From NCBI GenBank assembly GCA_031284605.1, contig JAITXV010000028.1, positions 1-36,972 of the forward strand: a DNA stretch of 36,972 nucleotides, given 5' to 3'. The notes below the pieces were generated by a model. The model was not told the origin of the DNA. It saw only the letters and a list, made by a program, of their open reading frames with translations, and ran no database searches. The DNA comes from Acholeplasmatales bacterium. Its GTDB lineage: Bacteria; Bacillota_I; Bacilli_A; Acholeplasmatales; Acholeplasmataceae. This document shows positions 5,096-7,666 of the stretch, piece by piece (within the stretch, counting starts at the first letter, position 1; every line of letters starts with the position of its first letter). The position numbers were made by a program, and so were the translations under genes.

Positions 5096-5126
5096 AAGCT
5101 TGCTTTTAGCAAGCTTTTATTTTAGC
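5086..5126. terminator. Bidirectional terminator between convergent genes
   Basis: A perfect 18-bp inverted repeat (5086-5103 with 5109-5126) encloses a five-base loop, with AAAATAAAA/TTTTATTTT flanks around a GCTTGC/GCAAGC core. Both flanking genes end inside it: the regulator stop (5093-5095) in the left arm and the minus-strand membrane gene stop (5117-5119) in the right arm. It should terminate transcription from both sides. Confidence 0.88.
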
Positions 5127-5809
5127 TCTTTCTTAAATTTCTTTTTTATGTTAAAAGTAATATCAATATTATTTATTGCAAGAACAACTTGAGAAGGTAA
5201 ATAAAAAATCCATGAAATAAATACTGTGTCAGTTAGTTTTGTTAAAATACCAAAACTTATATTTGAACCAGAAACTCCTACAAAAAAATCGCACAATAAA
5301 AATAAAAATAGACCAACTATTAAACAAATATTTTTCTTTTTTGTAAACAAAGATAAAATACAAGTGATGCTACAATTAGTAAAATAAACAACTGCTATTG
5401 TATTTTCTAAGTTAAGTATTTCTATAAATGAAGATAAAATTATTATAGTACTAGATAATATAATTCTTACTGTAATACTAATGATATTTGTCATTTTTTT
5501 AGAATCAATAGCTACTATTATTATGTATAGAAACCCAACAATTGTAAAAAATATCAAACCATTTAATTGGTTATAAAATTCACTCAATGTCAAAAAACAA
5601 TCCGCAAATACAGTGAAAAACAATGCTAAACTTCCAATCTCGCTACTAATAGTCTTCTTATTACAAACGATTGAAATAAGAAATCCTGTGACCAAAATAC
5701 TAAAAAGCAGATGGTTATCTATCTTATGCTGTAAAACTATTAACAGAACAAAAATCGTTGTGACATACATTAAATATAGGCATAATAATCCCATTTTTAA
5801 AATTTTCAT
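5117..5809 (-). CDS. Multi-pass membrane protein, possibly YhhN/lysoplasmalogenase-like
   Basis: The 230-residue protein is almost entirely hydrophobic, with about seven or eight predicted transmembrane helices, followed by a basic tail (FNIKKKFKKELK). The YhhN family has a GaxLFxxSD motif in a late helix and a final helix with Y-x-x-Q; here GLFLFLLCDFFVGVS and WIFYLPSQVVLAI are in the matching order, and an earlier Asp occurs in FADCFLTL. That resemblance is suggestive only, since the overall similarity is weak. The start codon overlaps the stop of the upstream DUF1461 gene as ATGA, with AAGGAG upstream, so the two are translationally coupled. Its 3' end lies in the bidirectional terminator. 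Confidence 0.75.
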   Translation of the reverse strand: MKILKMGLLCLYLMYVTTIFVLLIVLQHKIDNHLLFSILVTGFLISIVCNKKTISSEIGSLALFFTVFADCFLTLSEFYNQLNGLIFFTIVGFLYIIIVAIDSKKMTNIISITVRIILSSTIIILSSFIEILNLENTIAVVYFTNCSITCILSLFTKKKNICLIVGLFLFLLCDFFVGVSGSNISFGILTKLTDTVFISWIFYLPSQVVLAINNIDITFNIKKKFKKELK

Positions 5810-6498
5810 TGTGCTAATCTCCTTTTTATATATATCCCGCTAGTTATAGTACCCCCCATCATAAGAAGCCATGTAATTCCAATAGCTAGTCCTCCATCAA
5901 AAAATATTTCTTCTGGTAGCATAATCATCATATTGCTAGTCCCATAAAACACATAGTTTCCGCCACTAAAAAATATTTCGTGAAATACATCAAAGACATA
6001 TTCCCAACTAAATATTAGCATTATTACTATCACCACTATAGCGCTCAAATAGATTATAGGTGTTACTATTAAAGATTTCGCGAAATTTCTTAAATACAGG
6101 TGATTACGTAAGTTTCTGTATAATAAAACTGTTGTTATTATTATACCAATCATTGAAATTAGTAAAACAACTAAAAAGAAAATAAAAAATTGCCTAACAT
6201 TTTCCATATGCATTATTTCATCATTTTCATAAAACATAATTTTATTTCCATTTTTCATAACTTCAGTCTGTAATGTTTTTTTAGTCAAAGAAAAATAACC
6301 AATTAAATTATTTTTAACTTTGTCTAAATCTTTTTGAGATATTTCTAAATTGTCTAATACATCATATTTTTTGAACTCAGTATTGTAAAATGGTGAATTA
6401 AAAAAAATAAAATAAATTCCTATCACCAATATTGCATTCATAAGACAAATAGAAAATATTGCGATTAATAATTTGTTTATTGTTTTATTTTTTATCAT
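5806..6498 (-). CDS. DUF1461 / TIGR01906 family integral membrane protein
   Basis: The 230-residue protein has four to five transmembrane helices: a first one at about 9-33, then an extracytoplasmic loop of about 90 residues, then the rest. Family signatures seen are the loop start NSPFYNTEFKKY, NNLIGYFS, EIMHMENVRQFF and, near the end, DVFHEIFFSGG followed by MIMLPEEIFFDGG. The FHxIFF and LPExxF elements are the hallmark of DUF1461; its biochemical role is unknown. It overlaps the reductase-like gene by 14 bases and has no clear ribosome binding site, so translation probably depends on its neighbour. Confidence 0.8.
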   Translation of the reverse strand: MIKNKTINKLLIAIFSICLMNAILVIGIYFIFFNSPFYNTEFKKYDVLDNLEISQKDLDKVKNNLIGYFSLTKKTLQTEVMKNGNKIMFYENDEIMHMENVRQFFIFFLVVLLISMIGIIITTVLLYRNLRNHLYLRNFAKSLIVTPIIYLSAIVVIVIMLIFSWEYVFDVFHEIFFSGGNYVFYGTSNMMIMLPEEIFFDGGLAIGITWLLMMGGTITSGIYIKRRLAQ

Positions 6499-7357
6499 TA
6501 TATTTTAGATATTCATTAATTGAGTAAGCAGCTTCCATTCCATCGCAAGCTGCTTTAATAATTTGGTATTGTGGTCCAATACAATCTCCACCAGCATATA
6601 TTCCTCTAACAGAAGTTGATTTTTTATTATCAACTTTGATAATATTATCATCTATTTCAATTCCCAATTTATATGTAAGTGCTGAATGAAAATTATCTGC
6701 TATAAAAAGACAATCTAAAACATATTTATTATTTTTTGTAATAACTGCGTTTAATAATCCATCTTTTACTTCTAAATTTACAATTGGTTCATTAATAATT
6801 CTAACATTATTTTTTAAATTGCTTAAATCTTTATTTTTAGTAAATAATAGTATGTCACTAGCAATATTTTCTAAGATACTTAGTTCATGTTTTGCTTGTT
6901 CACTATCTCCGTAAATTCCAATTGTCTTGTTTTTGTAAAAGAAACCGTCACAACTTGCACAAAAACTAATACCATTTCCAATTAAATCGTCATTTTTAAC
7001 AAACGCTGGTTTAGTCCTATTAATTCCCAAACCTAAAAATATACTTTTTGTTAAGTATTCGTTTGATTGAGTAATAACTTTGAAAATATTATTTTCTAAT
7101 GTTTCTAAGTCTATAAGTTCTTCATAAAAAAAAGGAATTCCTAATTCTTTTAAATGTTTAATATTACTACTAAAAAGATCTTTGCTAGAAATCTTAGATA
7201 ATCCATACAAATTATCTAAAAATAACTCACTTTTACTTAGAATCCCACCATCTTTAGATAATATTAGCACTTCTTTGTTAAATCTTTTTAGATATGTTGC
7301 GCAAGTAGACCCAGAAGGACCAATACCTAGCACGACACAATCGTATATTTTAGGCAT
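6485..7357 (-). CDS. trxB: Thioredoxin reductase-like FAD protein
   Basis: The 290-residue flavoprotein has the two-domain layout of low-molecular-weight thioredoxin reductase. The FAD-binding GIGPSG is at 11-16, the redox dithiol CASC at 133-136, and the C-terminal FAD motif YAGGDCIGPQYQI leads to the helix KAACDGMEAAYSI. The NAD(P)-binding insert is divergent: GGGNTAVEE of classical enzymes reads GIYGDSEQAKHE (147-158), and the HRRxxxR motif that recognises the NADPH 2'-phosphate is replaced by TKNKDLS (173-179). It may use another electron donor, such as NADH, ferredoxin or flavodoxin. The length is slightly short of the usual 305-320. It follows trxA by three bases, so thioredoxin is the obvious partner. 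The symbol is given by similarity. Confidence 0.85.
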   Translation of the reverse strand: MPKIYDCVVLGIGPSGSTCATYLKRFNKEVLILSKDGGILSKSELFLDNLYGLSKISSKDLFSSNIKHLKELGIPFFYEELIDLETLENNIFKVITQSNEYLTKSIFLGLGINRTKPAFVKNDDLIGNGISFCASCDGFFYKNKTIGIYGDSEQAKHELSILENIASDILLFTKNKDLSNLKNNVRIINEPIVNLEVKDGLLNAVITKNNKYVLDCLFIADNFHSALTYKLGIEIDDNIIKVDNKKSTSVRGIYAGGDCIGPQYQIIKAACDGMEAAYSINEYLKYNDKK

Positions 7358-7360
7358 TCG

Positions 7361-7666
7361 CTATTTAACCAATTCAAAAAGCTTATTTTTAGATTGAACA
7401 CCAACTACCTTTTTTAAAGCTTTTCCATTTTTAAAAATACAAATGCTAGGAATAGTATTAATTCCATACTTTTTAGCAAGCTCCATATTTTTATCGACGT
7501 CAACTTTTGCGACTACGATGCTTTCATCTTCAAGTTCATCAGAAAATTCTTCAAAAATCGGACCCATTGTTCTACATGGTCCACACCATGGTGCCCAAAA
7601 GTCTACTATAGCTGTTTTAGCACTTAAAACTTCATCAAATATATTATTCTCAATATGAATTAACAT
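7361..7666 (-). CDS. trxA: Thioredoxin
   Basis: The 101-residue protein has the active site WAPWCGPC (C28 and C31) and the cis-proline segment NTIPSICIF. It reduces disulfides in cytoplasmic proteins and is itself reduced by a thioredoxin reductase, plausibly the gene three bases downstream. GAGGTGATAAA precedes the ATG, a good ribosome binding site. It is the first gene of a four-gene minus-strand unit (trxA, trxB-like, DUF1461, YhhN-like). Confidence 0.95.
   Translation of the reverse strand: MLIHIENNIFDEVLSAKTAIVDFWAPWCGPCRTMGPIFEEFSDELEDESIVVAKVDVDKNMELAKKYGINTIPSICIFKNGKALKKVVGVQSKNKLFELVK

Follow-up and report, generated by a model that had tools for sequence, protein, structure and literature searches.

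The window, a stretch of 36,972 nucleotides from contig JAITXV010000028.1 of an Acholeplasmatales bacterium (GCA_031284605.1, here genome G000), carries a reductase gene, P0001, which probably encodes an NAD(P)H-independent enzyme of the TRi clade. This enzyme would reduce the thioredoxin encoded directly upstream, and its FAD would receive electrons from a one-electron carrier: a flavodoxin, a ferredoxin or an EFR1 fusion. The first-pass annotation had proposed that the donor may not be NADPH. This proposal is well supported by the sequences: the motif loss is lineage-wide, P0001 shares a clade with the NAD(P)H-independent DvTRi, and it does not group with the NADPH-dependent TrxB enzymes. 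The gene, its motifs and its neighbors are as follows.

5117 to 5809, minus strand: membrane-protein-like gene, hydrophobic by eye, with a 4-bp overlap with the Lit-like gene
5806 to 6498, minus strand: Lit-like membrane protein (lipoprotein transacylase family), PF07314 at E 2.4e-24, below the NCBIfam cut-offs
6485 to 7357, minus strand: P0001, the window reductase, TRi-like and without NAD(P)H motifs, a single open frame of 290 aa
6572 to 6604, minus strand: second FAD motif of P0001, GIYAGGDCIGP (residues 252-262), with G257 and D258 invariant in alignments A1 and A3
6818 to 6844, minus strand: FTKNKDLSN (residues 172-180), a degenerate NADPH 2'-phosphate site replacing VHRRDxxRA, as aligned
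6884 to 6910, minus strand: GDSEQAKHE (residues 150-158), a degenerate NAD(P)H pyrophosphate site replacing GGGxxAxE, in register with 4gcm
6950 to 6961, minus strand: redox dithiol CASC (residues 133-136), with both cysteines (C133, C136) invariant in A1 and A3
7310 to 7327, minus strand: FAD motif GIGPSG (residues 11-16), with G11, G13 and G16 invariant in A1 and A3
7361 to 7666, minus strand: TrxA, a WCGPC thioredoxin (TIGR01068, 108.7 bits; cut-off 96.8), 3 bp upstream of P0001

The plus strand of 6485-7357 contains many stops. Alignment confirmed every motif that had been read from the letters alone: CASC and both FAD motifs are intact (YAGGDCIG occupies residues 254-261), and both NADPH motifs are lost. 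The two NADPH sites stand in register with those of Staphylococcus aureus (4gcm), Lactococcus lactis (5mh4) and Methanosarcina mazei (4zn0), where GGGxxA and HRRD are kept in all three. P0001 reaches only 151.7 bits with TIGR01292, the model for thioredoxin-disulfide reductase, whose cut-off is 343.45.

The adjacent TrxA is the likely substrate of P0001. On the other side, the start of the Lit-like gene overlaps the stop of P0001 by 14 bp, and this spacing suggests that the two are probably co-transcribed. A search for Lit-like homologues beside other reductase loci found none in the loci covered. For the membrane-protein-like gene at 5117-5809, neither Pfam nor NCBIfam gave a match at E 0.01.

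The family of P0001 was assigned with trees, all built without rows for MjDFTR and the Gloeobacter FFTR. The largest, of 102 rows, comprised the 40 TRi rows of the order, L192, 14 scan loci, L002 and six PDB chains, as well as 21 of the 25 fetched long homologues and 19 of the 66 canonical-looking scan loci. P0001 falls in a 51-row clade with DvTRi (5nii), with a support of 100/98. This clade consists of the 40 short reductases, DvTRi, a Desulfovibrionales homologue, six Clostridia rows, one row each from Woesearchaeota and Anaeroplasmataceae, and L179. A separate seven-row FFTR clade (100/99) contains CaFFTR, four Clostridia rows and the row of genome G038, and the TrxB-type rows form a third clade of 44 rows (100/94). 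Clustering with NADPH-dependent TrxB, for which the first-pass annotation had suggested a tree as a check, was not seen, as P0001 lies outside the 44-row clade; the identity of an NADPH TrxB was dropped on motifs and tree. A smaller set of 40 rows repeats the clade of P0001 and DvTRi (20 rows, 98/98). Chain 5nii (309 aa, with GEGVFAANQ and CTQGKAASI) is identified as DvTRi from its length and motifs, which equal those printed in PMC5627308.

By sequence, P0001 thus appears to belong to the TRi clade rather than to FFTR or DFTR, and we call it TRi-like. It shares the degenerate GGGxxAxE of the TRi enzymes. The published signature TQ/NGK, however, reads TKNK in P0001, and one of the three thioredoxin-contact residues is missing as well; hence, the protein is a variant within the TRi clade and not a strict TRi. 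According to PMC5627308, that signature was drawn from 17 sequences. It is possibly too narrow, since the strict form T[Q/N]GK occurs in only three of the 40 rows of the order. In YumC-type enzymes, CxxC is absent and HRR is kept, the reverse of P0001, which carries CASC but lacks HRR.

The best-surviving alternative is that P0001 is a clostridial-type FFTR, served by ferredoxin only, which we consider unlikely. Clostridial FFTRs are ferredoxin-dependent. P0001 shares their loss of GxGxxA and HRRxxxR, genome G000 holds a PFOR and a hydrogenase, and in a single-sequence search of the PDB with P0001, the Clostridium acetobutylicum FFTR chains were the best matches (E 6.7e-32). A search with profile A1, built from 19 relatives, favors DvTRi instead: 5nii comes first with 217.5 bits, and CaFFTR scores 195.3. 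The trees also separate the two clades, and no stand-alone ferredoxin was detected in five genomes whose homologues fall in one clade with P0001 (see below). Forcing P0001 and its congener into FFTR costs 42.2 log units in the 102-row set (AU p 0.0675), and the same placement costs 34.5 log units in the 40-row set (AU p 0.027). The FFTR placement is disfavored by these tests, though borderline, and they leave it some room. FFTR membership, as drawn from the single-sequence search, was dropped on the profile search and the trees, although the AU test on the full set (p 0.0675) falls short of rejecting it at the 0.05 level. Of the kinship proposed in the first-pass annotation, which had pointed to the ferredoxin- and flavodoxin-dependent reductases of clostridia and relatives, the motif loss common to P0001 and FFTR holds, but the tree puts P0001 with DvTRi, apart from FFTR.

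An AlphaFold2 monomer of P0001 (pLDDT 91.1, pTM 0.85) was compared with known structures using Foldseek and VIA-align, and it exhibits the two-domain thioredoxin reductase fold over its whole length. The model looks FO-like, with a TM of 0.86 to the FO form 5mjk and 0.63 to the FR form 5mh4. Closed NTRs superpose well on it; open FFTR structures, compared as whole chains, reach a TM of about 0.57 with an rmsd of 15-16. As the model is FO-like, we read this poor superposition as domain rotation and not as a matter of kinship. The structure 5nii was not among the 50 structural matches listed in either comparison, and this absence is no evidence. Structure comparison does not distinguish between the donor types.

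The spread of the motif loss was surveyed across 61 genomes, those of the window and of 60 relatives, with one reductase row per genome. A reductase match at E 0.001 or better is present in 57 of the 61, and a short reductase of the window's type, recognized by tree and motif, in 40. None of these 40 keeps GGGxxA, and none keeps HRR. The homologue of the congener (L003, same genus) is 43-44% identical to P0001, and 38 further homologues in the order, one per genome, are 33-42% identical; all lack both motifs, which makes an error in P0001 unlikely. The HRR site reads TNG in 17 of the 40 rows and T[D/E/H]G or SNG in 16. Seven rows have neither and include those of the window's genus, with TKNK (P0001) and TPDE, while the relatives of P0001 mostly carry FT[N/D]G at the 2'-phosphate site. 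Of 30 loci taken with flanks of 1.5 kb, 27 have a trx gene directly upstream of the reductase; the other three come from genomes of a single genus. The motif-less reductase looks like an old, maintained trait of the lineage.

Besides TRi, a longer TrxB-type match was found in 22 of the 40 genomes; these were called from score and length, and part of them were placed in the tree. No such match was found in the other 18, nine of which are at least 95% complete. The longer TrxB of many relatives (L162-L169, L171, L175-L178 and L200) keeps GGGNSA, has QNL or QDM in the HRR position and LTA for LRA; judged from these motifs, it is perhaps NADH-linked.

It is very unlikely that P0001 has a remodeled pocket with which it still uses NADH or NADPH. 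In favor of such a pocket, other TrxBs of the relatives have lost HRR yet keep GGGNSA, and the FNR-like gene of G000 suggests NADPH-linked flavoenzymes in that genome. In P0001, however, the GGG site is lost too, and DvTRi, the closest characterized relative, is inert with both NADPH and NADH (PMC5627308).

P0001 is more diverged than most of its relatives. It sits on a long branch (end branch of 0.98 in the 102-row tree), and three glycines invariant in 18 relatives are changed. The T[N/D]G of most relatives is lost. The thioredoxin contact G[R/K]G before CxxC, which is GKG or GRG in 14 of the 18 A1 relatives and GKG in the congener L003, has become GNG; the interface thus has two Phe (139 and 140) and an Asn at the Lys/Arg position. 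A gene in decay, its product no longer active on thioredoxin, could show such changes, but we regard this as highly improbable: the frame is open, 24 of the 27 columns invariant in the 18 relatives are kept, both cysteines included, the trx neighbor is retained, and no second reductase of this kind was detected in G000.

A search across the class found matches at E 1e-60 or better in 64 of 247 genomes. At least 299 bits, a line that is our own reading of a gap in the scores, were reached in 44 of the 247, 20 of them outside the order. Twenty rows from this search (16 from the 20 high-scoring genomes outside the order, one from the window's own family and three with lower scores) were added to a quick tree built without L179, L002 and L068. 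Nineteen of the 20 join DvTRi and P0001 in a clade of 68 rows with an SH-aLRT of only 79; the twentieth, L238, is placed among the NADPH enzymes. In the same tree, L034 lies outside that clade.

Some members of the order differ in their reductase content. In G038, a clostridial FFTR-type reductase (L192) is present and TRi was not found, possibly by replacement or transfer. G014 contains a third, very divergent homologue (L179, G014:C1:888815-889881); its 334 residues include CPFCDGWEH and FTNGKK, and its branch is 3.23 changes per column long. In three small genomes of one genus (G007, G020 and G030; 0.7-0.9 Mb), neither the reductase nor PFOR, the PF00258 flavodoxin or PF13237 was matched at E 0.001.

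That a carrier is the likeliest donor follows from genome content, not from family membership. The genome of the window measures 1.32 Mb in 132 contigs and is 87.7% complete; that of its congener, G001, is 90% complete. G000 possesses a PFOR (C85, 1613 bits), an NADH-dependent group A6 [FeFe] hydrogenase above the NCBIfam cut-off, two EFR1-family flavodoxin-ferredoxin fusions above cut-off (L148:1306-2064 and L149:240-965) and a flavo-diiron-type protein below cut-off. Apart from the latter, the EFR1 fusions are the sole flavodoxin-like carriers that our searches detected in this genome. No stand-alone flavodoxin was found there with PF00258 or with an alignment of seven relatives' flavodoxins, and no stand-alone ferredoxin in searches with [4Fe-4S] and [2Fe-2S] families. 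The absence of a carrier is weak evidence, as about 12% of the genome is missing. No typical TrxB was found in this 88% complete assembly either. The one other reductase homologue at E 0.001, L002, has 316 aa, no CxxC and the motif HRRNDFRA; by motif, it is a putative FNR-like, YumC-type ferredoxin/flavodoxin reductase, with no NCBIfam model above cut-off. In G001, a flavodoxin-like protein is present (PF00258 above cut-off; TIGR01753 at 120.7 of 123 bits).

Among the 40 TRi genomes, 35 have a PFOR (four as fragments) and 18 an FNR-like gene, called by score in the other genomes (E below 1e-40); each has at least one of the two. The FNR-like gene occurs in all five TRi genomes without PFOR versus 13 of the 35 with PFOR (Fisher p 0.013, a value that ignores kinship, the PFOR-less genomes representing only three genera).

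These five genomes (G011, G013, G014, G024 and G034) are 98-99% complete; TRi is present, and PFOR was not found. No stand-alone [4Fe-4S] ferredoxin was detected in them with PF13237, PF12838 or PF13370, the last of which detects its match in a Bacillus subtilis control, and no stand-alone [2Fe-2S] ferredoxin was found. The Fer4 matches in these genomes fall to two proteins: RnfC, to which NCBIfam gives the name in two genomes (two others have look-alikes), and a QueG-like protein, identified by name in G013 and by resemblance in three. All five contain a flavodoxin and an FNR-like match (E 3e-45 or better). All five also have another TrxB-type enzyme, and TRi is possibly dispensable there for this reason.

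Eight genomes of one family (G042, G047, G049, G051, G053, G055, G057 and G059; 96-99% complete) have TRi together with PFOR, and each contains a ferredoxin frame of 60-79 aa. A search limited to PF00258 found no stand-alone flavodoxin in them, nor was any TrxB-like gene other than TRi found. Ferredoxin presence was taken from the best 150 matches listed, and absence from per-genome counts and further family searches. The counts in both groups are over related genomes and, hence, not independent. If one mechanism is assumed for both groups, the enzyme accepts either carrier.

The chance that P0001 is an F420-dependent reductase of the DFTR type is negligible: DFTR likewise lacks HRR (PMC5627308), and the F420 ligase family PF01996 is above cut-off in nine of the 40 TRi genomes, including three of the five without ferredoxin (G013, G014 and G034), but it has no match in G000 and G001 (88% and 90% complete) and is below cut-off or without a match in 31 of the 40, including G011 and G024. 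As a donor shared by the clade, F420 appears unlikely from gene content, and it was dropped on these grounds (nine of 40 genomes, none in the window's genus). Since G013, G014 and G034 have PF01996, G011 and G024 offer the clearest cases for flavodoxin.

An rnf operon was observed in G011 (L242:2735-9176) and G014 (L243:914-7403), comprising C-D, two G-like genes, two membrane genes that resemble E/A and one gene that resembles ApbE; RnfC is named by NCBIfam, the other rnf genes by eye. No RnfB was found in either operon. In both genomes, PF12838 and PF13237 match RnfC and nothing else, except for the QueG-like protein of G011. RnfB is the ferredoxin-facing subunit of Rnf. An Rnf without it is perhaps flavodoxin-linked or Nqr-like.

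For the TRi-clade reductase that we favor, genome content points to flavodoxin or ferredoxin as the probable donor. In the proposed cycle, a carrier of low potential would deliver two electrons, one at a time, to the exposed FAD; the candidates are flavodoxin, ferredoxin and, for this genome, perhaps an EFR1 fusion. The disulfide domain would then rotate in, and FAD would reduce CASC; after rotation outward, the CASC dithiol would reduce thioredoxin. The carrier itself may be charged by PFOR, the [FeFe] hydrogenase or the FNR-like protein.

More tentatively, TRi may be carrier-promiscuous, using flavodoxin where ferredoxin was lost and vice versa, with EFR1 as the donor in the window's genome; we hold this wider reading for possible but doubtful. 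If true, thiol homeostasis in the lineage would be run by pyruvate or H2, and not directly by NADPH. In a 2024 survey of 349 genomes, a single TrxB is reported for Bacilli, and the non-NADPH enzymes of Firmicutes are located in Clostridia and Negativicutes (PMC10880999). Around the window, the TRi clade is now seen in 40 of 61 genomes, and scores place it in further families of the same class as well. In the loci whose flanks were inspected, its neighbor is mostly trx, and no other TrxB was found in 18 of the 40 genomes. Lineages without ferredoxin or without flavodoxin are natural experiments that narrow the TRi donor to a short list. In the open-licence literature, no paper later than PMC5627308 (2017) was found to name the TRi reducer.

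In comparison with named systems, the NADPH TrxB enzymes (4gcm, 5mh4 and 4zn0) share the fold, the FAD motifs and CxxC with P0001, but they have GGGxxA and HRR, of which P0001 has neither, and they belong to the separate 44-row clade. The cyanobacterial FFTR (Gloeobacter, 5j60 and 6xtf) has the same fold and is NADPH-independent; with profile A1, it scores 144.5 bits, below 30 other distinct chains. The stacking C-terminal Trp of the Gloeobacter enzyme, whose FAD midpoint potential is given as -448 mV (PMC12796991), is missing in P0001, which contains no Trp at all. The clostridial FFTR (CaFFTR; 6gna, 6gnc and 6gnd) resembles P0001 in its short length and in the loss of the NADPH motifs, although the two are only 26-27% identical in the structural alignment, with CDAPL in CaFFTR versus CDGFF in P0001. 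A trx gene in the reductase operon is common to P0001 and Clostridioides difficile TrxB1 (PMC10880999).

DvTRi (5nii) shares most with P0001: CxxC, the FAD motifs and FF are kept, and both NADPH motifs are lost. As described in PMC5627308, the FAD of DvTRi is reduced by neither NADPH nor NADH, and with an artificial electron system, the enzyme reduces Trx1; as to its natural reducer, the authors gave reasons against ferredoxin and F420 and put flavodoxin forward as a candidate. The two proteins differ in the 2'-phosphate site (TKNK in P0001, T(Q/N)GK in DvTRi), in the thioredoxin contact (GNG versus G[R/K]G) and in length (290 versus 309 aa). Moreover, P0001 adjoins a trx gene, whereas the gene of DvTRi is isolated, and the TRi taxa listed in that paper are Deltaproteobacteria and Clostridia, whereas P0001 comes from outside both.
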